A DNA stretch of 64,000 nt from Bolinopsis microptera. Taxonomy: Eukaryota > Ctenophora > Tentaculata > Lobata > Bolinopsidae. Below the pieces are notes generated by a model. The model saw only the letters and a program-made list of their open reading frames with translations. It was not told where the DNA came from and did no database searches. Where the stretch lies: assembly GCF_026151205.1 (NCBI RefSeq), contig NC_087072.1, positions 1,569,375 to 1,633,374 on the forward strand, written 5' to 3'. Below are positions 5,342 to 56,129 of this stretch, piece by piece; the first letter of the stretch is position 1; each line of letters starts with the position of its first letter. Made by a program: the position numbers and the translations under genes.

Positions 5342-8300
5342 GCCTGCCTACCTGCCTAGGTCGATCCAGATGAAATCTGGAACGAGTTTCGTGTCAACGC
5401 TTCTCTCCATTTATCCCTATCACACATGAGTAAACGCAGCTGGTCAGGTTCCATTCCAGTGTCTTCAAGTAGGACGTCTGGGAAGGTCTTATGTGGTCGT
5501 CCTCGATAACGCTGGCCATAGGATGGTTGCCAGAAAAGGAGTTGTTGAGCAGGTTGGTCCTGTAGACGGTAGACATGTCCTGCAAAACGAAGTCTTCGTG
5601 TCTTTATAGTATCTGTCACCGATGGAATCTTTCCGTAAAGAACGGAGTTAGGTGTATGTGATTTCCATGAGATACCAAAAACCCTTCGTAGCATTCTAGT
5701 ATAAACACCGTCTAGTGCTCTGCTATCAGCCTTTTTAAGAGTCCAGGTTTCTGCACCATACAGCAGAACAGGTTCTACTGCAGTTCGAAAAATCTTAGTC
5801 TTGATCTTCCTGGACATATTAGATTTCCAAAAAGCATCTAGACTCTGTAAAGCTTTCCATGCGAGGCCTTTCCTGACATTGATGTCTCTGCTTGTTGAGG
5901 CTATAAAGGATCCTAGGTATTTAAAGTCATGAACTTCTTCTAAAGGGTTGCCGTTAATAAAGACTCTATCGTCTGAGTTGACAGGTCGCGGGATGTTATA
6001 GGACATGTATTTGGTCTTTCCGATGTTAATAAGGAGACCATAACGGGCTGCTATGTCAGAGATGCTTTGGCAAAGGCGGCCATTTTCGCTGAAGCTGTCA
6101 GTAATTGTTGCTAGGTCATCGGCGAAGTCCAAATCAGCAATGTAGTTACTTCCAACTTTAAATCCATCACGTGGCCCTATTGCTAGTCTTAGTATGAAAT
6201 CCAGGACGATGATAAAAATGAGAGGTGCAAGAACATCGCCCTGGAGAATTCCGAGGTTGGTAAGGAATTCTAAGGTTATACCTTCAGGGGTCATGATTTT
6301 AGCCTTGGTGTTGATGTAGAGTGACATAATGGCTTTTATGATTTTTTTAGGAAAGCCGTAGGAAGCCAGGATGTCGGGAAGATGCGATCTGAAGATGCAG
6401 TCAAAGGCCTTTGAGAAGTCAATAAAGGAGATGACACAAGGAAGCTGGAAGTTCACAACCTCTTCGATGATACGTCTAAGAGCCAGAATCTGTTCACGAG
6501 TCCCTCTTCCAGGCCGGAAACCATTCTGGTTGTATCGGAGGCGAGGTTCTATGTGGCTCCTGATTCGGTTTAGAAGCAGCCTGTTGTAGATTTTCGTGGC
6601 AACAGGGAGGATGGAGATGCCTCTGCTATTTTCTGGACAGAACTTTTTAGCTCCTTTGGGTATAGGAAGAATGGCAGTGACAAGAAGCTCTTCCGGGGCT
6701 TTACCAGTAGCTAGCATGTTGTTGAACAGAGATAGTAAAGTAGTGTCCAAGTCAACACACTTGTACAGCAGAGAAGGAATTCCGTCATGACCGTACGTGT
6801 CCTTTGTCTGCTTGAGAGCTGTAGATAGTTCATCTGCTGAGAACGGTGACGTTTCAATTGGGAGTTCTGGCTTTTGGACTTCAAAGCTACCCATTCTGAT
6901 GTTGTCAGCAGGATTGTAAAGCAGTTTGCTGTAGTGGTCAGTCCACGCCTTTGCTCGATCTGCCTTGTTTCTATATCCAGGTAATGGAGACATAGATTTA
7001 GGCTTACGATTGGTAAGGTCATTTATAAGCTTCCACGCAATACCAGAGCTGTTTGATTTCGTCTGCCATGCTGCATACCCTGAGTGGTTTGCGGGTTGCG
7101 GAATAAACAGCTGATCTACTTGATCAATTGTCTTATTAACAAACGCTTCTTGTATGCTGGTTTCGACCTTCCTGACTTCAAGGGTGGCATCACGGAGGGC
7201 TTTAGTAGCAGCTCGTGTCTTTCTTTTGTGACTATCTTTCAACGCAGCATCTCGTGCCTTGACAGCAGCCCGGTACTCAGGATTAGATGAAATCTGAGCA
7301 GTTAGACTAGTCTTCTTCCTTTTGGGAAGTACTTTCTCTGCTGTGTCATTAATAGCACTTATCATGTTGGTGTATGCATGCTGGTTGTGTTGGACGAGGT
7401 CATCAGTCTCGTTCTCTTCATCCATTAAGGCAGTGAACCTGTTCTGGAGCTGGAGTTGGAAGGCTGTTGAAGTTGCAGTGTTACTTTTTAACTCCTCCCA
7501 GTCATACTTGATTACCTTAGGTCGGACGATGTTGGTCCTTATTGACAGCTTGATAGTCGCTGTGACAATCCGATGGTCAGATTGAACCGAGGGATTAATG
7601 TATGACTCACAGTTTTTAAGTGAATTCTGCCATTTTGAGCGAATGAGGATGTGGTCATTCTGATGCAGTTGACCATTTGGTGCTGTCCAAGTCACCTTTT
7701 TAGAATGCTTTTTGTTAAACTTTAGCGCACCGATGGTGAACGCGTTTTCTTGGGCAAAATCAAGAAGATGCTGTCCGTTTCGGTTTGTACATTCATAAAA
7801 TGCGTTGGTGTTGCAGGTGTCTTTTCCAAGGTGAGCATTCAGGTCGCCAGCTATAGCTACTACGTCATGAGGTGGAAAAGATCGGACACAAGAAGTTAAC
7901 TCTGCATAGAACTGTTCAACTTCAAGGTCTGTAGACACATTAGTAGGTGAATGACAAGTAACTAAGTGTGTGCAAACTTCACCGGTAAAAGAAACAGACA
8001 TTATCCTGTCTGAAAAGACGTTATGGTCGATGTAGCAGCGTTGGGCCCAAGGGGAAAGGAGGAAGCCAAGTCCGAGGAGTGTTCTACTTTTAGGGGGAGG
8101 AGATGCTAGGAGGAACTTGTAGCCATCACGCATTATATAAGGAGTCTTCTTAATACGATGCTCTTGAAGTGCAATCACAGGTATGTCAAAGGCTTTGGCT
8201 TTGCACACAAGTTCCCATTGCTTCCATTCTTCAGTGAGAGATCTTACATTGTAAGTAGAAAGGTAAAAGGATTCTGAGATTTTTTTGTTAATTTTTGGTT

Positions 8301-13665: not shown

Positions 13666-13728
13666 GTTAGGTTTGACTACCTACTTTATCAAAATTTAAA
13701 AATAGTTCAATTTTAATTTAGACAGTAC

Positions 13729-14401
13729 CTTTGCCAATAATTTCTACTTCAGTCACAGCTATGTGTCCTGTACTCTTGCTGAGTTTCAGAGTGTTTCCTT
13801 CAGTGTTACAAATCAGTGTGTAGATCTGGTCTGCCTGCTCTAGTCCGTATGTTAGTTGGAGTGTTCCACAAGACTTCTGTTTTACCTCTCCCTGGTACAC
13901 TGACACATCTACGTTGGTATGAGAATCTACGCATATCTTGAAATTAGCTTCGCTTTGAGCACAATGATCACCAGGATTGTACCAGTTGTTGTAAAACACG
14001 CGGTAGATAAGGACCTTGTGGATAAAATAAGTTCTATCAAATTCTAGTTTTAACCAGCCTGCTCCGTTATCAGTTTCAGTTGCTGCTACTGTTGAGAGGT
14101 CCTTATCAACTGCATGTGCTACACCATCAATCGCCTCGTTTCCATTTAAAGTCTTTCCGTGTGTAACTCTTGTAGGAGTTATCTCTGCCATCTTTACCTT
14201 CCGAACTGAAATATTATTATAATTTGTAAATTCACATATTTCGGACACTTTGTCACTTCTCATTTCCAAAATGTTGCCCTCTTGACTGCTAATTGCTGAA
14301 AACCTTGACTTAATGGACCTACCCTTTGTAAGTTCACCATCTGATTCACCAAGAACAGTCCACGCCATCATTATAACGAACAGTATGAGTTTCGGCATCA
14401 T
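13729..14401 (-). CDS. Secreted F5/8-type C (fucolectin-like) lectin domain, first exon of a lectin-kringle gene
   Basis: The ATG at 14401 opens a hydrophobic signal peptide (KLILFVIMMAWTVLG), followed by a linker and, from about residue 80 to 223, a discoidin/F5-8C or fucolectin-type galactose-binding domain. The visible signatures are NEAIDGVAHAVDKDLSTVAA, ETDNGAGWLKLEFD and a C-terminal IAVTEVEIIG strand. Such domains bind sugars or lipids outside the cell. The exon ends at 13729 before a GT donor, in phase 1, and joins in frame to the kringle exons at 12853-12988 and beyond. The combined known part is 311 codons and open-ended. The product is most likely an extracellular recognition or matrix protein. 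The start choice rests on the signal peptide. Confidence 0.8.
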
Positions 14402-16010: not shown

Positions 16011-18233
16011 TTATGTCTGTTGAGTTGGTAGTCCTGATGGGGTGACAGGCAGTATTGGCGTCTTTTTCGGGTTCCTGATGCGGTGACAGTTGCAAAGGAA
16101 TTTGCCCAGTTCTTGCACATGGGCAGAATTCATGATAGCTCCGTATTCCTTGAGCAGCAAAAGACTCTTAAGGTTTTCCGACAGTGAGAGTCTCGCTGAG
16201 TGGTACATTGGACATTCAGTGAGGCAGTGTTCTTCATTTTCAATGATTGTTCCTTCGAAAAAGGGGAGATATTCTAAGCCTTGAACGTTATCCTTGTTGC
16301 AGCAGAATCTGCAGGCTCTCGTCCACGTTCCAGTTTCTTTTGTGTATCTCCCTCTCTCAATAAGAAGGTCATGGCTACTGGAGCGGATTTTAGCTATGTG
16401 CATGCGACATTGACTATTCTTTAGATTGAGATACTGCTCCTCTCCGAATACCTGTTTGATAGTGCAGTAAAATTGCATTTTCTTTTGGGATGCTAAATCT
16501 GTTCTCCAATCTTTTACAAAGTGATCAACCAAATTTCCATGTGCAGTTGAGGTCGTTCCTTCTGCTCTGTGTTGGTCGGATCGAGCGAATTTGGCCGCTT
16601 TGGATTCAGACTGAGCGATCGAGTTCCAGGTCTTATACCAAGAGAGGTTTAGATTCTTCTGCTCTTGGAATGTCTGATGTACAAGAAAGTTGACGCTGCT
16701 CACGTCGGGTGATGTCTGAGACAATCTGTCGAAGTATCTCAGGCATTGTGGTAGTACCGACAGGGCCCATGGTAACCTGCCCGTATCTCCGTAACAGAAG
16801 TTGTTGTTAGCTTTCTTGTGTAAGCCGAGCACCCATTTCAGCATTTTCAGGTGTGTTGTCTCAAGTGCGTCCTTTGTTGCAGCTCTAGCAAGGTTCTGTC
16901 TTGAACCATCAGCGCAAGCCATCTCCTTTGCCATTTTTGTACACGGTAGCCATATCTGACAGGCGTACGTAGCGACTGGTTTAACGAGGCTGTCTATAAG
17001 CTTGAGCATGGTTTTTGTTGTTAATGCTCGAGTGTCGACCATGCGTCTGATCGAGAAAAATGCTCTTAGTGCTTTTTTCCTCAGTTCGTTCATGGCACCT
17101 TTAAATGAACCGTTGAGACTGAATTGAATGCCTAGATAGCAGTAAGATTTGGCCGATGAGATGTCCAGGTTCCCTAGTTTGAACCCGTAGGAGCACTTCA
17201 GCAAACGAGAGCTCGAGTTGAATACCATGATTTTGGTTTTGTCGATGTTAATTGACAGTTCCCATTTACTTGCAAATTCGTGCAGGCAATCAAGTTGTTT
17301 CTGCAGGCTTTTGGCGTCGAGTGCCAAAAGTATCAGGTCGTCTGCCCACAGAAGATGGCTGACCGGGAAGCCGTTCAGTTCTGGAATTGACAAGTCCTCA
17401 AGAGCTGCTAGTCTAATGGAGAGGTCATAAATGTATACCTTGAAGAGCTCCGGCGACATTGGATGTCCCTGTTCGGTACCAATGGTGACATCGATGGTGT
17501 CCGACAGCTTCTTGCTCAGTTTGATACGGGTAACTGAGTTGCTGTACATGTTCTGGAGGCAAGAGAAGAAGCTTCCTCCGATACCAAGTCTACTGAGTTT
17601 GTACATGAGAGCCTCCCTGCAGACTGTGTCGAACGCCTTACGATAGTCCACGAAGCAAGCGAATATTTTCTTCTTCAGCTTCTTTGTATACTTCTCGATG
17701 ATCGTTGTAAGGGTCAGGATATGGTCAGAGCACTGGGCACCAGCTCTGAATCCGAGTTGGTGAGGGAAGTCGGGACAGACGACTTTACGGAATTCGATCA
17801 GCCTATCAAGGAGGAGGGATGCAAAGAGTTTTCCAAGGCAACTTCCTACTGTGATTGCTCTATAGTTATCGGGGTTCTGCTTGTCCCCCTTTTTGTGTAG
17901 GGGGGTAGTTATTGAGCAGTTCCAGGGGTAGATTCCTTGCGTTAGGCAACCATTGAATAGTTTCAGAAGGACTTTTTGGAGACCGAGTTTGGAGCTCTTG
18001 AGCATCTCGTTGGAGATAAGATCACATGAAACGCTTTTGTTATTCTGGAGCTTATTGGTGACTTTCTCCAGTTCTTGGATAGTAAACTCTGTGTTGAGTT
18101 TTTCAAGTTCGACTGATGGCTCGAGGTGGTACTCGGTTCCCTGTTCATGAACAATATTACAACATGGGAGCGATCCCACAAAAATAGAAAAAAAAGTAAT
18201 CTGGATAAGTCCTTTTCTGAATAATATGTCCAT
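16011..18233 (-). CDS. 5'-truncated LINE reverse transcriptase with WADD motif
   Basis: This 740-codon ORF encodes a reverse transcriptase without its N-terminal endonuclease. Motifs in order are TTPLHKKGDKQNPDNYRAI, LGFRAGAQCSDHIL, CFVDYRKAFDTV, GTEQGHPMSPELF and LLWADDLILLA (near residue 298), followed by INIDKTKIMVF. The C-terminus has a CCHC-like C-x2-C...H-x4-C segment (RACRFC ... EEHCLTECPMY). The first ~45 residues do not look like LINE protein and are probably flanking sequence read in frame. It is clearly related to the ORF at 36699-39896. I place it among APE-type LINEs near CR1/L2, clade not settled. The copy lacks endonuclease and is presumably dead, although the remaining frame is intact. 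Confidence 0.8.
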   Translation of the reverse strand: MDILFRKGLIQITFFSIFVGSLPCCNIVHEQGTEYHLEPSVELEKLNTEFTIQELEKVTNKLQNNKSVSCDLISNEMLKSSKLGLQKVLLKLFNGCLTQGIYPWNCSITTPLHKKGDKQNPDNYRAITVGSCLGKLFASLLLDRLIEFRKVVCPDFPHQLGFRAGAQCSDHILTLTTIIEKYTKKLKKKIFACFVDYRKAFDTVCREALMYKLSRLGIGGSFFSCLQNMYSNSVTRIKLSKKLSDTIDVTIGTEQGHPMSPELFKVYIYDLSIRLAALEDLSIPELNGFPVSHLLWADDLILLALDAKSLQKQLDCLHEFASKWELSINIDKTKIMVFNSSSRLLKCSYGFKLGNLDISSAKSYCYLGIQFSLNGSFKGAMNELRKKALRAFFSIRRMVDTRALTTKTMLKLIDSLVKPVATYACQIWLPCTKMAKEMACADGSRQNLARAATKDALETTHLKMLKWVLGLHKKANNNFCYGDTGRLPWALSVLPQCLRYFDRLSQTSPDVSSVNFLVHQTFQEQKNLNLSWYKTWNSIAQSESKAAKFARSDQHRAEGTTSTAHGNLVDHFVKDWRTDLASQKKMQFYCTIKQVFGEEQYLNLKNSQCRMHIAKIRSSSHDLLIERGRYTKETGTWTRACRFCCNKDNVQGLEYLPFFEGTIIENEEHCLTECPMYHSARLSLSENLKSLLLLKEYGAIMNSAHVQELGKFLCNCHRIRNPKKTPILPVTPSGLPTQQT

Positions 18234-18450: not shown

Positions 18451-19978
18451 TATCTGGAAAAGTGATAATTGTTAAGGAAAGGAACTCTATCAGCTTCAAA
18501 TCAGTTATTAGCGGGTTCTCTGCTGATGTTCTTATAGTTGGAAAATATTTCAAGTACAATAATGCGAAAGTTATCATTATACAATATACATGGACGATTT
18601 CAATGTAGGTGAGTGATAGTGAAAGTGAGCTACCTTCAAGCGAGTACGTTGTCTGGAGTTGATAGCAAGGTGCTTACTACTCATCTCGTTTGGAGACTGG
18701 TACTTTCTTCTACTTTGTCTGAACCTGTGATATATATATTGCGTTAAATACTTTCAACACTACTATATAACAAATAATTTGAGCCTGAAGATGGCGTTGA
18801 CGCCGAAAATTTGCCCTTACTCCTAACTTCCTTGTTTCACTTGTCCTTGTCTCTTCCAACCGGATATTATCCAACTATCAGTATTTAAATAGAGTCCACA
18901 AAATACTTCAGCCCCTCACCCCAATACTTAAATCCTCCGCTCATTGATTTCAAGCCAATAATTGAGCGATTATCTTCCTCGAAAATATCATAACTCAGAT
19001 AATATGTTCCAAATACAAGCAAAATGACCTACTTTGATAATTGTGAAGATGTCACCGACCGAATCTTTGTCTTAGGAGTTTTAGACCAAAAATTGGAGAA
19101 CTATCCTGTCGGATGGTTGTACATTATTATAGTCAGTGTTAGTTGTTAGTATTAATGAGCTACTAATTAACCATTTAATACACTAATTTAACTTGATCAG
19201 TAAAGAATTAAACTTAATCAGTGAAGGATGCAGGCTGGTGTATTTCTCAGTAGAGACTTCTAAAAATCTTTTAATAGTCCATAACATCTGATCTTTTTCT
19301 CAAACGGCACCTTGTTCTCCTTATTGTGCTAATTCCGGGAAGCATTCTCATGAATTTTGCTTAAGCGATTTCAATTAACTTACGTTTTATAAAGTTACAC
19401 TTCCATTTTTTATCAATTATACCCATGGTTTTCCAGGCACTGTGTCCACGAGAGTTCAATTCAGCGATTCATATTGTTTAACTTTTTCTATTTTTGTTTT
19501 ATGAAGTGATTGTGTCAACCCACCAAAATGAAAAGTCTTAAACGCAAATACAATGACGACTGAAATAACGACTGCCCTCCCATTGAGAGGCTCCCAACGC
19601 AACCGGCCACAAATTATGCTCGTGTATACGCGTAGTGTATCGTTTATACACTACACATAATACATAATTCACTACACATAATACATAATAAAGCCAGTAG
19701 TTAGTCTAATGATGCGTAAAGCACAACATCTTTCGTCATAATATCATTATTTCGTAGTCCAGTGTAAAATATTGCATCATAAACTTTGTTTAGATAAATT
19801 ATTGATGTCATATGTTTTTCAATATGCGTTGCGAGCTCCCAAAAGGGTTTATATTTTAAGTAGACCATTTGAAAACATCTTTTACTGCGGACTGCCGTCT
19901 GCCACATATATACAGTTAGCTTACTTTGAATTCTTTCATAATTTTATATTTAGTGTTTACCGTGACTTATGTTACACT
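18451..19978. other. Intergenic, nothing firmly recognised
   Basis: No supportable gene. Short ORFs are random-like. Near 18785 the sequence CTGAAGATGGCGTTGACGCC is more GC-rich than its surroundings and may be repeat-derived. Confidence 0.4.
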
Positions 19979-20743
19979 CAGTAGGCACCAATGTTTTGGA
20001 TCAGCCGAAATAGATTTAACAAATGTTTTTTAACAAAAATTACATCAGATGGCAAGATTGATAAAGAAATAAGTGTCAGGATTAGAAAAGCAACCGGAGC
20101 TTTTAACCAACTCAACAACATTTGGAAGAATAAGAACATAAGCATTAACAACAAAGTGCGAATCTACATCGCAGCTGTTCTTACCATTCTGACCTATGGA
20201 TGTGAGATATGGAACACGACTCAAGTGCAGACAAGAAGATTGGAGTCTTTCCATCAGTAGGTACTGCTTAAGAAGAATCCCGAGAGTGAGGTGGTTCCAT
20301 CGAGTAAGTAATGAGGATGTTTTAAGAAGGGCATCAATAACTGCTCTTGCTGACATAATAACAACAAAACGGCTGCGTTGGTTTGGACATGTCAGTAGAA
20401 ATAGAATGCCTGAAGATCGGTTACCCAACTATTTACTCGAATGGAAACCCAAGCATGGGAAGAGATCAAGAGACAGGCCTAGGAAGAGCTTAAATGATGT
20501 ATTTATTGAGGATGCTGAGCAGAGATTGGATCGTAATGGACTCACGATTCATGATTGTATAAGAAGATTAGCTGCAGACCGAAAGGGATGGAGAAATGTT
20601 ACCCGCCGAAGTTGTATAATACAAAATAATGACGCAGTCGACGCAGACTAATCCTTTTGGATGGAGATCTCGCCATGTAACATGTATGTATGTAGGCAGT
20701 AGGCACCAATGTTTTGGATCAGCCGAAATAGATTTAACAAATG
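19979..20743 (+). mobile_element. 5'-truncated LINE insertion flanked by a perfect 47-bp target-site duplication
   Basis: 19979-20025 and 20697-20743 are identical over 47 bp (both begin CAGTAGGCACCAATG and end GATTTAACAAATG). Between them, 20026-20696 is the 3' part of a plus-strand LINE ending in a short GTAT-type repeat tail just before the second duplication. The long flawless duplication shows the insertion is recent and complete at both ends. Confidence 0.92.
20028..20651 (+). pseudogene. C-terminal fragment of a LINE reverse transcriptase, frameshifted
   Basis: The first frame reads ITSDGKIDKEISVRIRKATG and YGCEIWNTTQVQTRRLE, the thumb region that follows the catalytic core in RTE/CR1-like LINEs. 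Near 20250 the reading jumps to the other plus frame, which continues YCLRRIPRVRW, TKRLRWFGHVSRN and DRPRKSLNDVFIEDAEQRLD to the stop at 20651. The endonuclease and catalytic motifs are absent. It belongs to a different family from the element at 5342, though the C-terminal WFGHV block is shared. Confidence 0.85.
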
Positions 20744-22096
20744 GTTTGCACAAGTTTTTCTCACTCTGGAATCTAGCTGCAGTCTGGTGGTGTTGAGTTT
20801 CATGAATATTTCTCTAACCTTCATAATTACTAAGTCATGCTGAATTGCTTCATTGCAGATATTTTGGTCTTGTGTAATGTGTAAATGTAATTTACAAATT
20901 TAATTTACAAATTGTAAAATAGTAACATTTATTTGAATTTTGACTTGAAACTAGACCGAGTTACATTATTTTACCAGCTAGCCAGCGCAGCGGTAATTAT
21001 TTTTCTTGGTAACCCTACACCTAAAATATGTACTTCCTTCATGTTGTAGGACTAGGCGATGACGTTCTGAACATGCTGTAGTTTTGAACTTTTATTGATG
21101 ATTTGCCACATCGACTGTGTTTCGTTTTCCGTGTAAGCCTGTACTTAATACTTTAATAGTACCATTCCAGATTGGAGCAAGTTAACCGGTCTTGTCCCTT
21201 GTTTAGTCATTAACCAGGCTGGTACTGGCGACTGATTGCTGATACGTCATTCTTGTATTTTTAAAACTTATATCATATATTGCATTATTGACAAACATTC
21301 TTACTTATTACACTCCACACCTGGTGTATTAATATTATACACTCCGTGGTATTTAATTGAAACTTAATCTCACGCTAGATTTTCACTCACTATACATTTT
21401 GTACTATAGCTTCCAGAATTTTCAGTCTGGCTTTTAGTTTGGGTTGTATTGTGTTTGTTTGAGAGTTTGGAAGTCTTTAGACTGTTCATGGTTTACTCGA
21501 ATTATTCAGTTATGAGCTCAAGGATAAATACACCACCAGCTTGCTTGTACTTGGTGCTATGCACTTACAGCACGGAGATCGAACTCCTAATCTCTCAGTT
21601 GTAAAATCCCATTCACGCCAACAGACCACTGTCCACCAAGCCCGACGGCATTCCACATTTATGACAATATAATAAATCTTGGTAATAATTAGTAATTATT
21701 ACGAATATCAATTATTATCAAAAATTGATTTTAATTTCAATATCATTGAGTTTTACAATACACCAATATTCAGTGTCTAGTGTTTATATATGAGACAATT
21801 GAAGTGATATGTGACTCAGTTTAGTGCAACGTGGAGTCGTTAAATCAGCTACCCAAAACACAGGTTAACATATTTTTAGTTAATTACTGACAGTAATCAG
21901 CATGTAGTGGCATCTGATTGAATATGTAAAAAATATGCTATTCCTATCCGTTCTAATTGCCTTGCTGTCAAAGATAACGTAGGCATTTTCAGAAATCGAC
22001 ATACAGAGAATAATGTTAAATCGAAGAACAAAAGCCGATTACATCAGCAAATAAAGGTAAGAAAAGAATATATTGGACAAAAAAGATGCGTGACAC
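20744..22096. other. Upstream intergenic region of the NERD-helicase gene
   Basis: No supportable ORF. A tRNA-like segment (about 21570-21640) is listed separately. The promoter of the downstream gene should lie in the right part, but no clear element was identified. Confidence 0.4.
21570..21640 (-). repeat. Possible tRNA-derived SINE head
   Basis: On the minus strand, TGGTCTGTTGGCG (A-box-like, about 21616-21629) is followed about 30-40 bases later by GAGTTCGATCTCC (B-box-like, about 21574-21586). This is the spacing and motif pair of an RNA polymerase III internal promoter. A complete cloverleaf was not established, so a SINE remnant is more likely than a functional tRNA. Confidence 0.4.
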
Positions 22097-22099
22097 ATG

Positions 22100-22186
22100 A
22101 CTGACATGTCCCACACTGACATGTCCCACACTGATATGCCCCACACTGACATGTCCCACACTGACATGTCCCACACTGATATCACA
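22100..22186. repeat. 15-bp minisatellite at the 5' edge of the NERD-helicase ORF
   Basis: About six copies of CACACTGACATGTCC with minor variation. In the frame of the downstream gene it would encode repeated TDMSH, but I regard it as 5' untranslated or promoter-proximal because a better start lies at 22262. Confidence 0.9.
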
Positions 22187-22261
22187 GTATTTTTTAACAC
22201 AAATAATAAAATTACAAATGGTGACAATCAACTGTTTCAGATAAAGTTCTCTTCAAAAACG

Positions 22262-25200
22262 ATGTCGGAAAAAGATCTATCAATATCTGGATCAGTTGCT
22301 ATCACGATTTGCTATGGTATCGTCGGTGCATTTTTTATGTTAAACTTTTTGTCAAGAAGAAGATATAACTACTCTTTACTCAAAAAGAAGATTTATGAAA
22401 TCCGGTTAATTATCACAAATGCAAAACGAAAATACATCGATGATTGGTTGACAAAGCTGAAGAGAGACGGTGAAGATATCCGTGCAAACTACCTCCCATC
22501 ATCGGAACCACTACCAAAAGATCAGCCATATAAGTACTACCCTATCATGATCCCACCAACACCTCTCTCACAGTATGTTGACAGAATGAATATGAAACTT
22601 CTAAATGAACTGAAGAAAAAGGATAGGGTAAAGTACGATGGTATCATAAAACAACGATTAGATTCCAAGGACGGTTACGAGGCCGAAGTGAAAGTTTTTC
22701 GGGCCCTTGAAAGATTGAAACTGAACGAGAACATGATATTCGTTCTGCATAGTTTAAAGTACAGTGATCAGAGGGATTATCATTATTTTGTTGGAGAAGT
22801 ACAACAAGGAGAGTGCGATTTTATCATAATGGGAAGGAACTATTTCGTCATCATAGAAGTTAAGAAAAATCATGCAGACGTGAAAAACGCTATGGATCAA
22901 GCTAAACGAACTGAGAAGCTTATTGCAGGCATTATGGCTCAAATTACTGATAAAGTAAAACCTCAGATTTTGAACTTCGCTGCATGTCCCTTCTTCGCAG
23001 GTGTGAAAGATGTAAAAAATGCAAGAGTTATAACAAAAGAAGATCTAAAAGATGACAGGAGCTTTTATTCATGGTGGGAAAAAAACGTTATCGACAACGT
23101 AGATCAGCAAACTTCTTCTACGTATTATGAAGAAACTCGAGACATTCTTATCGCGTTGTGGGCCATGAATAAAAACAATAAATGTGAGAAAGAAAGGTGC
23201 TCCTTGGAGTGGAACGTACTGAAGATTGATAAGGAACTAAAAGATGGCCTGATCACATTTGAGCCGAAAAAAGACAAGGGGACAGCAAGCCTAGATGTTG
23301 TTGAAGCACCCGAGGTAATCAGAAAATATTGTGGAGTTAAGTACCTGACAACAGAGCAAAATAAAGTATGGCAACGTTTCAGTTTTCTAAAATACAAAAC
23401 AGAGCAAAATAAGGTATTTCAGTGTCTCGGTTTACAAAAATACAACGTATTTGAACGCTCACTAAGATACAAAATAGATCATCAAGATAGGGTATCTGAA
23501 TTTGTATTAAGAATATACGAAGAGAGGATACTAGGATCAAATCGTGAAGATGAGTTATATGAACGTTTACTAAGATGCAAAACAGAAGAAGATAAGGTAT
23601 TTGAATGTTTTCTAAGATACAAAACAGAAGAAGATAAGGCATTTGAACGTTTACAAAGTTCTGATACACTGATATCCCGTACAACCATTAACGACAAATT
23701 TAGAAATGAGTTTGAAGTTTTGCTTAAACTCAAAACAGAGAAAGATTTGGTATTTGAACGTTTGCATGGATACCGAACAGATAGAAAAAATGAGTTATTT
23801 GAACGGTTACTAAGATACAAAACAGAAAAAGAAAGTTCTCTGAGAGACCACACAGAGGAAGATGAATTATATGAACGTTTACTAAGATACAAAACAGGGG
23901 AAGATAAGGTATTTGGATGGTTTCTAAGATACAAAACAGAAGAAGATAAGGTATTTGAATGTTTTCTAAGATACAAAACAGAAGAAGATAAGGTATTTGA
24001 ACGTTTCCTAAGTTCTGATACACTGATACTCCTTACTGATATTCCTTACTACGACAAATTTAGAAATGAGTTTGAAGTTTTGCTAAAACTCAAAACAGAG
24101 AAAGATTTGGTATTTGAACGTTTGCAAAAAGACAAAACAGAGGAAGATAAGGTATTTAAACCTTTACTAAGAGACAAAACAGAGTTATTTCAACATGCAT
24201 TAAGATCCCACATACCATTTCTAGTATGGATTGATGGACCAGCTGGGAGTGGGAAAACTGTGCTTCTGGCAGGGAGACTGCTACAACTAGCTCTGCAATT
24301 AGATACAGTACAGAGAAGAAGTGTTGTTTTCAAATTCATTGAAGGAAACAGCGACACTGACTCTACAGAAGGAGAAGAACACCTTACAATATATCAAAGA
24401 GCATGTCAGGAAGCAGGCGTGGATGTCAAGCTTATCTTTCCTTCTAACTCTGGAGAAATACATTCATTGGCAGAGCAGATAATGAACAGTAATAAAACTG
24501 TAACAATTATAGAGTTGAAATATGTTGATATCAAATATCTGAAATATACATTTGCTAATCTTGAGTGCTTTGAGTCGAATGTGATTATAGATGATTTTCA
24601 GTGCCTGTTACGTTGGTATGGCAAAGCTGATATCGGTGACCTGCTGAATAAACTGAACAGATTTTATAGAGTTTCAGGGTTTAGTCTGCTAATAGCATGT
24701 GATTTAGGACAGTGGTATTGGCGTGACAGAGAATATATTGAAAGTGTAAGAAATTGCATTGAAAGGTATTGGACTTTTGGAAAACAAGAGTTAAAAAAGA
24801 ATCTTAGGAACACTTGTGATATATCAGATGTTTTATCCGTTTTTAGAGATAAATACATAGAATCTGCGCTAGACTGTGACATGTTACCCAAGCAACTTCC
24901 GGGTCATTTCATCCGTGGCCCACTAACTGAATTTCATATATTTGAAAAGTTTGATCGTGATTTAATCACGATTAAATTTAATCAAGAATTGATGAAGTTA
25001 TGCAGAATTAACGATTCAGATAATTCTAAATATGGGACTGTAGTTTACAATGATGTTAACGAAGCACTAATTGAAAGCATATCGGAGGTGAATAAAGAAA
25101 AGATAAAGGTGTGTCACTGTTCACAAATCAACTCAGCTGAATGGCCGGCTGTTCTTGTGTTACATAATATATGGGGCGTTAACTTAGTTAGTTACCGTAA

Positions 25201-25381
25201 CTATGAGAAAGAGGACTTTACTCAACTTTATCTTATGATATCGCGAGCTCGGGTAAAGTGTTCCGTTTTGATGTATAAAGGAGGAAGGCGAAAGAAAGAG
25301 AAATCTTATTCAAGACCGATGAATACAATGTTACTATTGCTTGAAAAAATAGAACCTTTAGCTCGTGTTATCAAATATTAG
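22262..25381 (+). CDS. Membrane-anchored NERD-type nuclease / SF1 helicase fusion
   Basis: An intronless ORF of 1039 codons from the chosen ATG; the frame extends 55 codons further up through a minisatellite. Residues ~8-29 form a hydrophobic segment (AITICYGIVGAFFML) followed by SRRR, so probably a membrane anchor. Residues ~138-235 match a NERD/PD-(D/E)xK nuclease: GYEAEVKVF, then GECDFIIMGRNYFVIIEVKK with D186, E199 and K201. Residues ~370-640 are charged repeats (RYKTEEDKVFE). The C-terminus is an SF1 helicase: Walker A DGPAGSGKT (K665), VIIDDFQ (D777/D778), ACDLGQ, LKKNLRNT (R849), a motif-V-like INSAEWPAVLVL and LYLMISRARV (R995). The predicted role is nuclease plus ATP-driven nucleic-acid remodelling at a membrane. 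The layout recalls bacterial NERD-helicases and, more loosely, Schlafen proteins; the function is unknown. Confidence 0.8.
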   Translation: MSEKDLSISGSVAITICYGIVGAFFMLNFLSRRRYNYSLLKKKIYEIRLIITNAKRKYIDDWLTKLKRDGEDIRANYLPSSEPLPKDQPYKYYPIMIPPTPLSQYVDRMNMKLLNELKKKDRVKYDGIIKQRLDSKDGYEAEVKVFRALERLKLNENMIFVLHSLKYSDQRDYHYFVGEVQQGECDFIIMGRNYFVIIEVKKNHADVKNAMDQAKRTEKLIAGIMAQITDKVKPQILNFAACPFFAGVKDVKNARVITKEDLKDDRSFYSWWEKNVIDNVDQQTSSTYYEETRDILIALWAMNKNNKCEKERCSLEWNVLKIDKELKDGLITFEPKKDKGTASLDVVEAPEVIRKYCGVKYLTTEQNKVWQRFSFLKYKTEQNKVFQCLGLQKYNVFERSLRYKIDHQDRVSEFVLRIYEERILGSNREDELYERLLRCKTEEDKVFECFLRYKTEEDKAFERLQSSDTLISRTTINDKFRNEFEVLLKLKTEKDLVFERLHGYRTDRKNELFERLLRYKTEKESSLRDHTEEDELYERLLRYKTGEDKVFGWFLRYKTEEDKVFECFLRYKTEEDKVFERFLSSDTLILLTDIPYYDKFRNEFEVLLKLKTEKDLVFERLQKDKTEEDKVFKPLLRDKTELFQHALRSHIPFLVWIDGPAGSGKTVLLAGRLLQLALQLDTVQRRSVVFKFIEGNSDTDSTEGEEHLTIYQRACQEAGVDVKLIFPSNSGEIHSLAEQIMNSNKTVTIIELKYVDIKYLKYTFANLECFESNVIIDDFQCLLRWYGKADIGDLLNKLNRFYRVSGFSLLIACDLGQWYWRDREYIESVRNCIERYWTFGKQELKKNLRNTCDISDVLSVFRDKYIESALDCDMLPKQLPGHFIRGPLTEFHIFEKFDRDLITIKFNQELMKLCRINDSDNSKYGTVVYNDVNEALIESISEVNKEKIKVCHCSQINSAEWPAVLVLHNIWGVNLVSYRNYEKEDFTQLYLMISRARVKCSVLMYKGGRRKKEKSYSRPMNTMLLLLEKIEPLARVIKY
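23370..24190 (+). repeat. Coding repeats: 14-residue units with a ~354-360-bp higher-order duplication
   Basis: Inside the NERD-helicase ORF, 42-bp units encoding variants of LRYKTEEDKVFECF recur. A larger block (from TEEDKVFECF through SSDTLI to DKFRNEFEVLLKLKTEKD) appears twice, at about 23575-23770 and 23930-24130, the second copy 6 bp longer. All length changes are multiples of three, so the frame is kept, which suggests selection on the protein. Confidence 0.85.
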
Positions 25382-26444
25382 ATTTCTTTCTTATTTGCTA
25401 ACAGTGCATGGGAGCCCTTCAGAACAGAGACCGGGACATTCTGGCCGTAGGATACTAAAGACTTCAGAGTTCAGGGTCCATACCTTTAAACATTTTTTCT
25501 CGATGTTCAAGAACATCAAATATACGAACATTCATAACATACATGAACAACTTCTGAAGCTGTTGCATGTTCGATCAAGACTAAAAACCTGCAGGCAGTG
25601 TTGATCTGAGACCGATGAAAGTGACATTAGCTTGTGCGGCATCTGCAGTGAAATTGGTCCTTTCTCGAGCAAGTAATCTAAAGAAATCTCAATCAGCCAT
25701 GAAATGTACCACAGTTGGTTACATCACAACTGACAGAAACAAAGAGGAGAGAGCAGCTCATCAGAAACCTTTTCTCAAAATAAAGGATATGATCATTGCT
25801 GAGCCAAAAAAGTATCACTATCTTAGGCAAGATTCTAAATATAGATAAGACAGTAACTGTCACCAAGATAGTATTAGTCACCAAGGTGTAACAATCAGCG
25901 CATTGGTTATCTATAGTACTTTGTTTTGATTGTATGCAAGCATGTAAAACTGTTAACTGATTCGTAAATTTGATGATTTTTTGTGAAAACTTTTTTAAAT
26001 GAGGAACTTTTTTGTGAGTCTTAAAACTGCAACCGTGATTGTAACTCAGGTATGTGATGACTTGTGGATCGCACATCGCTGAATAGCAATCGCGAAGCAG
26101 GTTTCACCCAGGTCAGGTTTGTCTAGGCTATTCTCTGAGGGCACACTGTGTTTATGTTTTGTGTTGTGTGCCAAGGTACATCGTTTGATTTTGGATATTT
26201 TCGTATGTCTTACAGTTACGGGTATCAATATCTATCATATATATTCTATGCAATTCAATTATTTTTCGAGTAAACATTAATCGGGGAACCAAAACCCGAT
26301 TCCCAATCAATCAGGAATAATATAATTTTTAATTGTCGGTGGAATCCAAATTTTTGATGGTTAAAAAGGGGGCATAATAGTAGTATAGGGAGTATAATTA
26401 TAGGTCACTATAGGTGATATAAGAGCAACAGTCGTGCTTTTCAG
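25382..26444. other. 3' flank of the NERD-helicase gene, no further gene recognised
   Basis: Short ORFs only. An AATAAA about 400 bp past the stop (near 25779) could be the polyadenylation signal. The 77-codon plus ORF at 25615-25848 and minus ORFs around 25693-26228 show no domain. Confidence 0.4.
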
Positions 26445-26504
26445 CACTGTGAATCCCCTGTAAGAAAATGAATTATGTTCAATCCCCTGTTAAAGAGTGA
26501 GTTA

Positions 26505-27387
26505 CCTTATCGGACCTTATTTGGACGGACATTACTTGAACGCTGGAGGCCCTAGCGTTCATCTTAATGTCCGTTCAAATAAAGTCCGTTCAATTAATGT
26601 CCGTCCAAGTTAAAGTCCGTTGAAATTTTTTCAAACATTTTTCCATTTCGAACTTTTTGTCCAGAATATGACAACTATGAGAACTTTATTGTGCCGTAAG
26701 TTAACGACGGAAAGGTTCTCCTTGGTCTGCCGGAGGCACAGAAAACTTTACTAGTATATGATGTTTTCAAGGGTCACTTGGCGGAAAAATTCAACGAAAT
26801 TATGGCACTCAGAAGAAATGAACTAGTCCCCGCCAACATGACAAACTTGTTCCAGCCTCTAGATATTACGGTAAAATCGTGTTTCCAAGGACATTGTCCG
26901 ACGTTGTTATAGTTCATATTACTCAGGGGAGGTAATGGAACAGTGCTAGGAAAGCTCCACGTGATGTTAAGGTTAACCTAAAGTTGTCTAAGATAAAACC
27001 ACTTCACGCCGAATGGCTTGTAAAAGTTAACACTGAAATGCAGGACCAGGGTAGTTTGATAAAAAAAGGTTTCCATAAAGCTAGAAATCACTGATGCTTT
27101 AAGCATGGACTATTTCATGCACGAAAACCCATTTGATGAAGATGATATGTGATATTAGACACTGATCATGTACACATGTTTTAAGAGTTTTACTGCTTAA
27201 TGACTGCTTTTCTTACTTACTGTATAAAAAATGGATTTAAAAATCATTTACTGAAATTAAAAAACGTCAAAAAATTGAAAAAAATTCGGATTTTTGATGG
27301 TTTTGAATGCCTTCGAGCGTTCATATTAATGTCCGTTCATAATTATGTCCGTTCATGTAATGTCCGTCCAAATAAGGTCCGATAAGG
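26505..27387. mobile_element. Degenerate pogo/Tc1-mariner-like element with terminal inverted repeats and TA duplication
   Basis: The ends are perfect inverted repeats beginning CCTTATCGGACCTTATTTGG and extending about 30 bp, with further subterminal GTCCGTTCA repeats on both sides. A TA dinucleotide flanks each end (26503-26504 and 27388-27389), and minisatellite sequence continues on both sides. The interior carries a broken DDE-transposase remnant. At 883 bp it is too short to encode a full transposase. Confidence 0.85.
26715..27110 (+). pseudogene. Remnant of a pogo-type DDE transposase
   Basis: The frame at 26715-26912 reads LLVYDVFKGHLAEKFNEIM, then NELVPANMTNLFQPLDITV before a stop. 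This matches the block holding the last catalytic acidic residue of pogo/jerky-like DDE_1 transposases (D-x-F-K-G ... VPAN-T-x-x-x-QPLD). A later frame contains LSKIKPLHAEWLVKV and IKKGFHKA, typical of the C-terminal region. The N-terminal DNA-binding part and first catalytic Asp are missing and the frame is broken, so it is non-functional. Confidence 0.75.
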
Positions 27388-27837
27388 TAGGTTGAATCCC
27401 CTGTTAGAGACTGAGTTATGTTGAATCCCCTGTTAGAGAGTGAGTTATGTTGAATCCCCTGTAAGAAAATGAATTATGTTGAATCCCCTGTTAGAGAGTG
27501 AGTTATGTTGAATCCCCTGTAAGAGAGTGAGTTATGTTGAATCCCCTGTTAGAGAGTGAGTTATGTTGAACCCCCTGTAAGAGAGTGAGTTATGTTGAAT
27601 CCCCTGTTAGAGAGTGAGTTATGTTGAATCCCCTGTTAGAGAGTGAGTTATGTTGAATCCCCTGTTAGAGAGTGAGTTATGTTGAACCCCCTGTTAGAGA
27701 GTGAGTTATGTTGAATCCCCTGTTAGAGAGTGAGTTATGTTAAATCTCCTGTTAGAGAGTGAGTTATTTTGAATCCCCTGTTAGAGAGTGAGTTATGTTG
27801 AATCCCCTGTTAGAGAGTGAGTTATGTTAAATCCCTC

Positions 27838-31945: not shown

Positions 31946-33236
31946 GCTGAGTGTTGGGCCCTTAAAACATTGTTTAAAGCCACACCTGGAATCTCAAGTA
32001 CCAGGATCAGAGATGGAAGCTAAGCAGATACATAGATGGAGTTGCTATCGAAAGATATAGAACTCAGGTATCCAACATCGTACCTTGATTATATTGTGGT
32101 ATTTTCTTTCTTAACACTTACTGATGTGATACACTACCTTAAGCCTGCGCTACACATAGCTATTGCGTCAAAACTACACTACCGTAATCATTTGGAAACC
32201 CCCCTAGCTCAGCTAGCTGATTATGTAATATGTAAACGACCCCTTATGCTAATTTGTAGTTGATCCTAGCTAGCGCTAGCCGACGAGTAATACTTCACAT
32301 AGCCATTATATGTGTATACCGATACGCGTACTGCCTTCGGCGGTCGCGCGCTACTGCAAGCGAGAGGGCTCTGGTTAGAGCAAACTTCTTAGTAATATCG
32401 CAAACATTTAAAACCGATACTTAGGGATAGTTAGCGCTGGCCAACGCTTACCTGGGGACCCCAGGCTATCATGTTCATAAACACAGAAAATAGGAATTAG
32501 GCCGAATGACAGGTTGAGCTCCGCCTAGCTAGTAAGCCAACGCTAGCTGACGATTGTAATTTATGTTTATAACCGTACATTTACAAATATATGCGCACCG
32601 AGTTGGACTTGGATTTGAAAAAAATATTTCCAATTTTAAGATTATCACCCGTTAACTTACAATGGTTTTGCAGCCGTACAAAACGGTTTTACATAAACCC
32701 TAATCCCAATTCAATCCTAACGACCTAACCCTAACCATAACCCCGAAGCTATCCATAACCCTTACCACAACCCTAACCCTAACCCGAACCCTAAACAATC
32801 GAATTCATGTTTTACTAACCTGTCACGTGACCAAAACGGTTTTTTGCCCATAACTCTCCAGGGAAACAATTTTACCCTACGTACTCATGGGGGTGATTCG
32901 GAATCAGCGTCCAAAATACTTATACACCGATTTAGATCAAATTCATACCCAAAGGGCCTTTTCACAAGAATTTTCTTAAAATTTTGGCGAGCGATTTAGT
33001 AGGAGCTGTTGACATGACTCCAGCTCCATTAAATTAATTAATTACCACTCGAAGTGTGCAAAAACAATAAAAATTGTGTCAAATATTTAGTGGAAATCTT
33101 TTTTTTTTAATTTAATATGTTTTACAAATGTTCAATTCTCGGTTTTTTTGTTTTGGATATCTTCGTTAAGTGAAATTTCTATAAACTTTAAGCTAGAGCT
33201 TATGTTTGAATTGATTGACGATGTCAACCCTTCCAG
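31946..33236. other. Non-coding part of the tandem unit
   Basis: After the endonuclease stop comes an AT-rich stretch with several GCTAGC/AGCGCT palindromes (32265-32280, 32430-32450, 32530-32550), then the telomere-like tract listed separately. The 75-codon ORF at 32036-32263 has no recognisable domain. Confidence 0.45.
32690..32965. repeat. Degenerate telomere-like tract plus conserved flank (copy 1)
   Basis: Irregular CCCTAA/CCTAACC repeats (32697-32795) followed by CTGTCACGTGACCAAAACGG and GATTCGGAATCAGCGTCCAA. The same order of motifs is found in the foldback element at 52543-53622, so this is a shared mobile module rather than a chromosome end. Confidence 0.8.
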
Positions 33237-35918: not shown

Positions 35919-36194
35919 TACATAAACCCTAATCCCAATTCAATCCTAACGACCTAACCCTAACCATAACCCCGAAGCTATCCATAACCCTTACCACAAC
36001 CCTAACCCTAACCCGAACCCTAAACAATCGAATTCATGTTTTACTAACCTGTCACGTGACCAAAACGGTTTTTTGCCCATAACTCTCCAGGGAAACAATT
36101 TTACCCTACGTACTCATGGGGGTGATTCGGAATCAGCGTCCAAAATACTTATACACCGATTTAGATCAAATTCATACCCAAAGGGCCTTTTCAC
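35919..36194. repeat. Degenerate telomere-like tract plus conserved flank (copy 2)
   Basis: Copy of 32690-32965 in the second tandem unit; the compared sequence is the same. Confidence 0.8.
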
Positions 36195-36698: not shown

Positions 36699-39600
36699 TT
36701 ATAATTTGGCAATATTGTTAATGTTAGGAATTTGTTTGGGGGACGCTTTAGGGAATCTTCGTTCATGAGCTTTGGTAAGGAACCTTCCTAGGTCTCCGAT
36801 GGTTGTAGGGTGTGCGAAGATCTGTCCAATGTCAGAGAAGAGTAATGTTTTACTTTGTTGGGACAAACAGTGGCGGAGATCTTCATAGAGAGGGCAAGTA
36901 CGCAATACATGAAGTTCATCTTCGATGATTGGATCAGGGAAAGGAAGCTCTAGAAGAAGATCGAGTGACTCCACATCTGTAGTAGAACAGTGTTTGCATG
37001 CCCTATTCGAAAGTTTTTGTCGATGCATGCCGTGTCTTCCAGTTTCGATGTTGTATTGATGCGAGCTTGTTCTGAGTTGCGCAAGTCTCCTAGTCTGCTG
37101 TGGCCGTAGGTTGATCGACAGGTATGTTTCGCAACCGAAGCTTGCCTTGATGAGGTTATAGAATCCTAGTTTTCTGTTGAGTTTTCGCTCTTTGTTCCAT
37201 TGTTGAACGAAAAGGGTTTTCATAGCCTCGCTGATTTTGAGCGGGTTTGAAATATCACTTCCTCCTGTCAGTTCTTTCACTGTGTTCTTAGTGGATTCCA
37301 GCCGGGAGAACCATAACAGTTTCAGATCCCTCTGCTCGGCGTAAGCGTGCCTCACTAAAGAAGAGCATCCCTCTTTGTCCAGTCCCTCCAACCTCCCGAG
37401 GTAGCTATAGACTTGGGACGTAAGCTCGATGGCAAGCGGGTATCTTCCAGTGTCACCCCACACAGCGGTGTTTGAAGTCGATTTGTTGACATTCATAGTC
37501 CATTTCATAAATGATAGGTGAACTTTCTCCAGGGGGTCTTTTGCTGTATCCTGAGTAGCCGGATAACTCCCCGAAGCAAAGATAGACATGAAATTTGTCA
37601 TGGGAAGCCAGATCTGACACCCGTAGGATAGAACAGGAACAATCAGAGTGTCGAAAAGCTTAAACACAGTTGTCTTCCGGAGGTATCGAAGGTCAAGCAT
37701 ACTCTTGAGAGAGAAGTAGCTCCGGAGCCCTTTTTGTCTAAGCTTTATCTGAGCAAGTTTTAATGATCCCGTGAGTGTGAACGTAATTCCAAGATATGTG
37801 TACTCACGCACTGATGGCAAGGTCATTTCCCCGTAGACAAAATTAGTACTGTCCTTGAGCACCCGTCCTGCCCGGTTAAACACCATAATTGCTGTTTTTG
37901 ATATGTTAACCGATAACCCCCACTCTTGACAGTAGGTGTGTAAAACTTCTAACATTCTTTGAAGACTCTCTTGATCGAGAGCCAACAGAATCAGGTCATC
38001 GGCCCAGAGGAGGTGGGTTACTCTAGTACTTTTCAGTAACGGTACTTCGACATTTTCCATAGAATTAAGGTCTTCTGATAGCTGGTGTATGAAGCATTTG
38101 AAGAGTTCTGGAGACATGGGGTGTCCTTGTTCAGTCCCGCAAAGAACATCGATCTTTTCAGAGAGCTTGTTCAAGAGCTTGATTTTTGCTTTGGAGTTTG
38201 TGTACATGAACTCCATGCAACCAAAGAATCTTCCTTTGATGCCTAGTTTCCAGAGTTTGTACAAGAGTGCCTCCCGGCAGACTGTATCAAACGCTTTGGC
38301 GTAGTCAACAAAACAGGAGAACAATCTGCCTTTGTTAGCTTTTACATATTTTTCTATGCAAGTCGACAGTGTCAATATATGATCTGCTGTTTGCGCGTTT
38401 TTGCAAAACCCCAGTTGATTGGGGGTGTCAGGGTTTGTTTCAGTACAGAATTTTGTTAGTCTCTGGAGGAGAATACTTGCAACCAGTTTTCCCACGTTGC
38501 TAGCTACTGCGATTGCCCTATAGTTGTTGGGATCGTAGATGTTGCCTTTTTTGTGCAGAGGCGTCACAACAGATGTTCCCCAGGGATAAACTCTGTGTGA
38601 TAAACATAGGTTAAAGAGATGCAGTATAGCGCACTGCATATGTTTTCCAGAGAGTTTGAGAAATTCATTGGGGATTAAATCCTCCGACACTGCTTTCCCT
38701 TTCTTGAGCACTCGAGTACAAGCCAACAGTTCTTCGGAGCTTATGTCTTGGTCAAGGATTTCTGTGAGTGTTTGCTGGGTGGCATCTCTGTCCATTTCGT
38801 CTTGTAGTTCTTTTATTTTCTTAGGGCTGATCGATGGTTTACTATACAGCTCTTTGAAGAATTTGCTGAAGTTAAGCATATCAAAGACGTCCAATTTGCT
38901 TCCATTTGTCTTCATATCTTTAAGCCTCTTGAAACGGGACCAGTTAATATTTTTGCCTCGTTCGATGTCACTACATAGGTCCTCTATGAATGCAGACTTT
39001 TTAAGTTTTATGAGTTTCCGATATGATCGTCGACTTTCATAGTAAGAGTCTCTGAGTTTTTTATTCGTAGGATTTTTGCCGTAACTTTTGGACAGTTTGT
39101 TCAACTCCCGCTTGCCGTTTATACAACTTACATCAAACCACGGAGCTTTGGGCTTCATCCTTTGTCTCCTTTTTCTTTTTCCGCTCACTATTTTCCTATC
39201 TGGCTTGTTCCTCGGACCCTTTGTCGGAAGAATAACATCGGCAATGTCTTGGAAGATAGATACGAGTTCTTCATTAAGACACAAAACTTGTTCTCTGTCT
39301 GTGCATTGGGTTTCCGCGATTCGGGTTATTTTCTGAACAAATTCTGGCGAATTCTGGATCGCATGAAACTGAAATTGAAGTTTCTCGTCCTCATTATCCC
39401 ATTTGTATTTTTTAGGTGCGTCTTCTAGTGTTTCAAGTAGATCCTCTGCATCAACCAAGTTGTGTTTGTGCTTTATTTTGCAGATGCACGGCTTGTGGTC
39501 AGAAAATTTGTTAAGATTCTGCACTTGGAAGGACAGCACTGATTCCAACAATTCAGGTGTGACTGCCATATAGTCAACTACGCTGGCACCATTGTAGTTG

Positions 39601-48639: not shown

Positions 48640-48969
48640 TTAGGGGCTTAGCTGTAATGGCTCCTTAAAATGATATTGAGATAAATACCAATACCAATAT
48701 AAGCTGTCCTTGCTGTACTGACTGGAGCCATGACAAGGGGGAGGATATGTTGTAGAGTAGTTGGGTGGGACAGTGGGAGGATATGTTGTAGAGTAGTTGG
48801 GTGGGACAGTGGGAGCTGATGTGTGATCAAGACAGGACGGTGAGATAGGAGCTGGTGACTGTTTCGTGGGAGCTAACAACATCGAATAACTGTAAGAAGA
48901 ACCGGGAGGTAAGCTGGAACTGGCGAGAAAGGGCTCAGCTAACCAAACTGTAAGTTCAGAGGCTAACAA
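48640..48969 (-). CDS. Pro/Ser/Tyr-rich ORF, possibly the C-terminal exon of the zinc-finger gene
   Basis: About 105 codons ending at 48640, low in charge and rich in Pro, Ser and Tyr (SSLPPGSSYSYSMLLAPTKQ). A 36-bp duplication encodes TVPPNYSTTYPP twice. Such tails are common in transcription factors. The ORF lies directly downstream of, and slightly overlaps, the stop of the zinc-finger ORF in another frame, with acceptor-like AGs (CTTACAG, TTCCAG) near its start. It may therefore be spliced to the zinc-finger exon. A chance ORF is possible. Confidence 0.35.
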   Translation of the reverse strand: MLASELTVWLAEPFLASSSLPPGSSYSYSMLLAPTKQSPAPISPSCLDHTSAPTVPPNYSTTYPPTVPPNYSTTYPPPCHGSSQYSKDSLYWYWYLSQYHFKEPLQLSP

Positions 48970-55843: not shown

Positions 55844-56129
55844 CTGAAATAAATAGGTAGATTTAATTCTACTAAGTTAGTTACTACTACTAATCTGGTA
55901 AGAACTTACAGAGACTGTTTAAAATCTCTTAATTATTAATATTAAAACATTTGATCAGTAACTTAGCGAAACTTGAGGTTCTTACCTGGAGGGGGATATT
56001 TAAAACATATACGTGATACGAAAGATTACATAACTAAAAACCTAGGCTTGTGAGGTAGTTAGAAAAAAAGAATGCCAGTTGGCCACTGGTCTTGAGGGAT
56101 GAAGCGATCTTCTTACCTGTCTGCCTGCA

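Follow-up and report, generated by a model that had tools for sequence, protein, structure and literature searches.

Why does a ctenophore chromosome carry a nuclease and a helicase fused in one uninterrupted frame, a plan best known from bacteria, and what might such a protein do there? The gene in question lies in a 64,000-nucleotide stretch of the Bolinopsis microptera genome (contig C1, positions 1569375-1633374), referred to here as the window, and a preliminary description of this DNA had taken it for a membrane-anchored enzyme, possibly acquired by horizontal transfer. We find that the gene is a genuine NERD nuclease of the PD-(D/E)xK type joined to a superfamily 1 (SF1) helicase, with its motifs intact, and that it belongs to a large ctenophore family. 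Its molecular identity is much firmer than its biological role.

In the searched text of an immune-domain survey of Mnemiopsis leidyi (PMC11797021), there are no canonical Toll-like receptor (TLR) gene models and no canonical vertebrate-type NOD-like receptor (NLR) structure, while one candidate with NACHT and leucine-rich repeats and many NACHT and TIR2 genes are reported. Neither NERD nor nuclease is mentioned in that searched text, nor, by term search, in the parts covered of PMC6005172, on ctenophore horizontal transfer, and PMC13231562. No description of a ctenophore NERD-helicase family was found in the open-licence literature, as judged by titles and the start of abstracts in short listings, and the family of NERD-SF1 nuclease-helicases is apparently undescribed in ctenophores.

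Domain layout of the window gene

The open reading frame (ORF) listing of the window gives a single forward frame for the gene. Translation likely starts at 22262 (Met56); the paralogue on contig C7 retains MSEKDLS, without the upstream repeat peptide. The features of the gene, in window coordinates, are as follows.

22097-25381 (+): whole open frame, 1094 amino acids (aa), from the ORF list
22100-22179 (+): 15-bp tandem repeat at the 5' end of the frame, probably untranslated (repeat detection)
22295-22351 (+): residues 67-85, a predicted membrane anchor with a basic stretch after it (Kyte-Doolittle 2.08; present in paralogues L011 and L012 and, by eye, in P0001)
22625-22987 (+): NERD nuclease core (model residues 177-297), with catalytic D241, E254 and K256 (Pfam NERD, model, residue alignment)
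22988-23344 (+): linker from nuclease to helicase, mostly helical in the model
23345-23368 (+): SF1 Q motif LTTEQNKV, with Q421 (Q in 105/105 covered database proteins)
23350-23445 (+): 48-nt direct duplication that takes in Q-motif DNA; its two copies are 81% identical, and the array probably started from it (repeat family D8, TRF)
23390-24211 (+): degenerate array of 14-aa (42-nt) repeats between Q motif and Walker A (12 units with at least 6/14 identities to the consensus)
24236-24259 (+): Walker A, or motif I, GPAGSGKT (alignment)
24590-24601 (+): motif II, DDFQ, with DD for the usual DE (DD in 101/101 covered database proteins)
24701-24712 (+): motif III, DLGQ (alignment)
24800-24814 (+): motif IV, NLRNT (alignment)
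24902-24919 (+): GHFIRG box, near-invariant in the family, its H and second G invariant (alignments)
25133-25147 (+): motif V, SAEWP (alignment)
25241-25252 (+): motif VI, SRAR (alignment)
19238-27835 (no strand assigned): stretch shared piecewise with L011, coding and non-coding, the three longest matches at 90.5-94.9% DNA identity (blastn)

The pairing of a NERD nuclease with an SF1 helicase, first proposed from motifs, was borne out by profile, motifs and predicted fold. PF08378 (NERD) matches residues 193-272 of the window protein at 23.0 bits, above its curated cut-off of 22.1 bits, and matches 16 of the 27 relatives scanned at E<=1e-3. In predicted models the NERD core runs alpha-beta-beta-beta-alpha-beta, which is of PD-(D/E)xK type as read from secondary structure and not from a separate fold search. 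The Q motif and motifs I-VI were all located by alignment in the window protein, and the helicase fold is supported by structure comparison. No Pfam helicase profile exceeded its curated cut-off on the window protein, where P-loop families matched below threshold only, and an NCBIfam scan gave no useful family name. From its sequence we infer that the predicted NERD domain would act as a nuclease.

Distribution and conservation of the family

The window gene is not a lone enzyme but one of at least 83 distinct family loci in its genome, a 264.65-Mb assembly of 232 contigs. Searches with the window protein and P0092 yielded 78 of these loci and P0029 added five, all such counts being lower bounds; a match to TIR only was left out. 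The loci are spread over contigs C1-C13, eleven of which measure 15-26 Mb, and some neighbours lie within 50 kb of one another. An open frame of at least 600 aa is present in 70 of the 83, and a single frame of 700-850 aa in 59. The uninterrupted frame of the window gene is confirmed at frame level, the level at which an intron-less coding frame is common in the family. Because 70 loci share such a frame, it is no evidence of recent transfer of the window gene, which is how the lack of introns had been read, and any bacterial origin would be old.

Three protein searches returned 107 proteins, comprising 105 family members and two, P0106 (Mailhella sp.) and P0107, that were set apart. A source is named for 10 of the 105, all ctenophores: eight from B. 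microptera, including P0023, P0088, P0009 and P0010, and two from M. leidyi. The search beyond ctenophores required shared 5-residue words and scored the best 7990 candidates, and absence in other eukaryotes is not implied. No relative was found among phage records by tblastn with P0029, nor among viral contigs in a profile scan that used the Walker A stretch as its sole pattern. Prokaryote genomes gave two weak matches near Walker A, and P0107 had two weak bacterial matches among plasmids; neither pair was used as evidence.

Catalytic residues are close to invariant across covered database members. In P0029 numbering, the nuclease residues D118, E131 and K133 are found in 103/103, 101/102 and 91/103, and among the helicase residues the Walker K is present in 103/104, the motif II DD in 101/101, the motif III Q in 96/100, the motif V E in 89/94 and the second R of motif VI in 93/94. 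For the 90 members covered at every site, the nuclease triad is kept in 79, the helicase set in 85 and both in 75; among the 41 genomic ORFs fetched, both sets are kept in 26/26 covered at every site. At motif V, Q replaces E in 12/36 covered genomic ORFs. The DD of motif II, correctly noticed at the outset, is, to judge from these alignments, a family trait and not a peculiarity of the window gene.

Some members depart from the common layout. P0051 apparently has two tandem copies of the N-terminal NERD-type half (seen by eye; Pfam finds the second), the copy at L046 (C12:1535000-1540500) is split into two overlapping frames by a frameshift or an assembly error, and further genomic copies contain stops.

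Likeness to bacterial and animal systems

A 77-member family profile aligned with the bacterial P0106 over 382 columns that span NERD through motif IV (probability 98, E 2.9e-13), and the domain order of P0106 is collinear with that of the family, which supports the bacterial-type architecture first suggested. The alignment with the NERD protein P0107 covers 75 columns, in the NERD part only. When 27 members were compared with PADLOC models at E<=1e-3, matches were to NERD+UvrD C3a187 (11), Nhi (9), RTasNERD-Hel (7) and AbiO (6), with the GajB and mad8 models matched as well in some members. Because most of the matched stretches shown include the Q motif/Walker A region, these matches support the helicase more than the whole plan.

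The part seen of PMC12904381 describes Nhi as a single-gene nuclease-helicase that detects phage single-stranded DNA-binding protein, nicks DNA and unwinds it. Like the ctenophore proteins, Nhi, AbiO, C3a187 and RTasNERD-Hel carry NERD and the SF1 helicase on a single chain, with NERD first. The ctenophore proteins differ in forming an animal multigene family, in the DD of motif II and in their remote sequence; the window clade adds a predicted anchor and a Q-motif array, and some relatives have ankyrin or TIR tails. By analogy, the family would work most like the anti-phage NERD-helicases, although in sequence the two are remotely linked. The architecture could plausibly have come from bacteria, in which case its origin would be old.

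A resemblance to long Schlafens, also raised in the preliminary description, holds for the helicase fold, where SLFN11 and UvrD tie in the structure comparison (Dna2, Upf1 and AddAB are also among the matches). It does not extend to the nuclease, which unlike that of SLFN11, SLFN14 and SLFN5 is a NERD domain of PD-(D/E)xK type and not a Schlafen core. Pfam scans of the window protein and of the relatives scanned list no Schlafen-core/AlbA_2 domain, and PF09848 (SLFN group 3 helicase) is unlisted for the window protein and below cut-off in the relatives with scores shown. Animal NLR/STAND receptors are similar in being large lineage-specific families with a P-loop NTPase centre, and ankyrin/TIR C-termini occur in one ctenophore clade, but in the ctenophore proteins an SF1 helicase bearing motifs I-VI, not NACHT, occupies the centre. 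On the window protein NACHT scores 15.6 bits against a cut-off of 26.7, and weak NACHT and NPHP3_N matches cover the P-loop region.

The window clade: anchor and repeat array

In a midpoint-rooted tree of the 129 sequences kept (coverage limit 480 columns), the window gene, L011, L012 and P0001 group together in one clade (support 1.0). P0106 and P0107 fell below the limit and are hence absent as roots. L011 is a same-strand paralogue about 91 kb upstream of the window gene with 93.6% protein identity, and L012 is the C7 paralogue, 79.6% identical to the window protein. The kilobases of non-coding flank shared by the window gene and L011, and likewise by the duplicates L019 and L021, indicate that both pairs arose by DNA-level duplication.

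The hydrophobic segment behind the proposed N-terminal anchor is real, with a 19-residue mean of 2.08-2.09 in the window protein, L011 and L012, and the same segment is seen by eye in P0001. It is restricted to this four-member clade among the ORFs examined and is not a feature of the family at large: the highest N-terminal hydropathy in the other fetched genomic ORFs is 1.72, the calculation having covered those ORFs and not all database proteins. The predicted anchor is followed by the basic flank SRRRYNYSLLKKK, which by the positive-inside rule suggests that the enzyme would sit on the cytosolic side. We therefore regard the window clade as putatively membrane-tethered through its N-terminus.

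The second peculiarity of the clade is an insert separating Q motif and Walker A. Of the 34 genomic copies in which this distance could be measured, 30 have 19 aa and one has 33 aa, compared with 297 aa in the window protein, 232 in L011, 224 in L012 and 278 in P0001. In shuffled controls for the 12 repeat units of the window protein, the 95th percentile was 6 identities and the maximum 7, so that units at the low end fall short of significance. An origin of the array from the clade's own Q motif is most likely, since the first units are a duplication of 48 nt that include this motif; the match of the Q-motif peptide to the late-repeat consensus is weak (at best 5/14 in the window, 6/14 in L012). 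For the array, the ratio of nonsynonymous to synonymous rates (dN/dS) comes to 0.95 when the window gene is compared with L012 and to 1.73 against L011, where there are few changes; the array is probably a tolerated, length-variable surface spacer.

The ExS clade: altered nuclease and new tails

Eleven database proteins have ExS in place of ExK in the nuclease motif. Without this lysine a PD-(D/E)xK enzyme should be inactive. All seven proteins with ankyrin or TIR tails carry ExS: C-terminal ankyrin repeats are present in P0019, P0021, P0047, P0088 and P0089, and a C-terminal TIR_2 domain in P0092 and P0095, which are closely similar to one another. Six of these tails passed Pfam cut-offs and that of P0047 was taken from precomputed Pfam. 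The ten ExS proteins entering the tree form one exact clade (support 1.0), within which P0020, P0040 and P0093 have no tail, P0020 ending early; the remaining ExS protein, P0102, a piece of 447 aa, was too short for the tree. The triad is lost without any tail in P0025 and P0056. These sequences suggest that in the ExS clade modules for binding or signalling took the place of the nuclease output, and the swap may have been a single event, because all tailed ExS proteins sit in one clade.

A TIR domain sharing 71% identity with the one in P0092 also lies at C1:21994593-21994952 (-), in a 2311-aa frame with no NERD-helicase match. The stretch fetched at this locus (L054) held no ORF of 300 aa.

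Selection on motifs and surfaces

Ratios of nonsynonymous to synonymous differences (pN/pS) were obtained by counting methods from 10 disjoint paralogue pairs, drawn from 30 frames 600 aa or longer, with codons within three of a gap dropped. The NERD half gives a ratio of 0.36 (p 6e-22), the linker 0.50 and the helicase motifs 0.26 (p 3e-15), while the remainder of the helicase changes at a near-neutral rate or faster. By region, it reaches 1.52 between motifs III and IV (p 0.045), 1.39 before motif V (p 0.054) and 1.50 between V and VI (p 0.28, few codons), with 0.90 for I-II and 0.62 for IV-V; without the gap filter, III-IV gives 1.40 and V-VI 1.76, both with 90% bootstrap intervals above 1. 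Inter-motif values exceed 1 in the pairs L027/L036 (2.84, p 0.008) and L024/L029 (2.47, p 0.006), uncorrected for ten tests. The catalytic motifs are constrained and much of the inter-motif surface is free or diversifying, and we do not claim positive selection as proven.

Other features of the window

Three long ORFs with a reverse transcriptase (RT) domain (RVT_1) lie at 5356-8208 (-), 16011-18233 (-) and 36699-39896 (-), one of them with a weak endonuclease match, and these elements around the gene resemble long interspersed nuclear elements. A C2H2 zinc-finger ORF of 321 aa is located at 48956-49921 (-), with an 84-bp tandem array at 49013-49309. Downstream of the window gene is a 29-bp tandem array of 15 copies (27391-27835); at L011 numerous overlapping matches to it, spread across some 1.5 kb, point to a longer array there. 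Arrays of the same degenerate CCTAAC unit, a telomere-like sequence, occur 3229 bp apart at 32724-32794 and 35953-36023, and a 69-bp tandem array of about 17 copies at 56111-57271. A 227-aa ORF at 13718-14401 (-) begins, by eye, like a signal peptide and has matches below threshold to a galactose-binding domain.

What the family may do

The best explanation of these data, to our minds with an even chance of being right, is that the family consists of cell-autonomous factors for restricting or sensing nucleic acids, mostly single-frame NERD-SF1 enzymes. The SF1 motor would load on foreign or aberrant DNA or RNA of viral, bacterial or transposon origin and advance along the strand by turning over ATP, and the substrate would be cut by the NERD domain. 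Ankyrin or TIR modules, for binding or signalling, would take over from the nuclease output in the ExS clade, and in the window clade the enzyme would be stationed at a membrane, on the cytosolic side, by its N-terminal anchor.

More tentatively, and with the odds against it as a whole, the loci could form an immune-receptor-like repertoire on a bacterial-type NERD-SF1 plan, in animals that are candidates for the sister group of all others and poor in canonical TLRs and NLRs. In such a repertoire a core acting as motor and sensor would have rapidly changing surfaces, and most genes would supply a nuclease effector; it would also include the effector-swapped ExS clade and the membrane-stationed window clade with a spacer grown from its Q motif.

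Several observations weigh against an immune role. The pooled inter-motif pN/pS of 1.15 is not significantly above 1 (p 0.073), the pair window-L011 shows no inter-motif excess (0.81), and the contrast is weaker between window and L012, with dN/dS of 0.38 for NERD, 0.95 for the insert and 0.81 for the helicase; relaxed constraint explains the inter-motif rates as well as an arms race does. The ExS change and the tails are confined to one clade, so that their link rests on few events. The window protein itself matched nothing in PADLOC better than mad8 at E 0.03, none of the five other window ORFs of at least 200 aa is defence-like by Pfam (intron-containing genes there being unannotated), and large families and clusters arise without immunity too.

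Among the alternatives, the one that survives best, though we consider it unlikely, is that these are ctenophore-expanded nuclease-helicases for DNA or RNA repair or processing, on a Dna2- or AddAB-like plan and with no immune role. Repair enzymes also join a nuclease to an SF1 motor, and Dna2, UvrD, Upf1 and AddAB are among the structural matches. However, at least 83 loci with rapid inter-motif change are unlike repair genes, and the fusions of ankyrin or TIR to proteins with an altered NERD triad, together with the profile matches to anti-phage NERD-helicases, speak against this function.

It is somewhat less probable still that the copies spread selfishly, as cargo or core gene of a transposon. 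Their dispersal on C1-C13, mostly as one frame, the kilobases of non-coding flank shared by recent copies and the RT-bearing ORFs within the window would fit such spread, but no inverted repeats bracket the gene in the two stretches examined (one paralogue's and the window's), the family proteins scanned with Pfam contain no transposase or integrase domain, and neighbours are clustered. The shared flanks moreover speak against retroposition of those pairs.

A decaying or neutrally drifting multigene family of little present function, with anchor and insert as by-products, appears improbable. Frames of at least 600 aa persist in 70 of 83 loci, constraint is strong on the motifs and the NERD half, and the catalytic residues are near invariant, whereas truncated or stop-containing loci and the dN/dS of the insert (0.95 and, on few changes, 1.73) are what such drift would produce. 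Least probable by far is a bacterial contaminant contig, which the preliminary description had kept in mind and which we reject, or a very recent horizontal transfer: the architecture is best known from bacteria and the frame lacks introns, but the gene lies on a chromosome-scale ctenophore contig (C1, 26.2 Mb) with RT ORFs and a zinc-finger ORF nearby, its relatives are on C1-C13 and in Mnemiopsis, and the nearest bacterial relative found is remote. An old horizontal transfer is possible.

Were the immune role true, the family would provide a concrete candidate for nucleic-acid sensing in ctenophores. An anti-phage-type nuclease-helicase family of at least 83 loci, with a clade in which the effector has been swapped, would then be a further link between bacterial and animal immunity.

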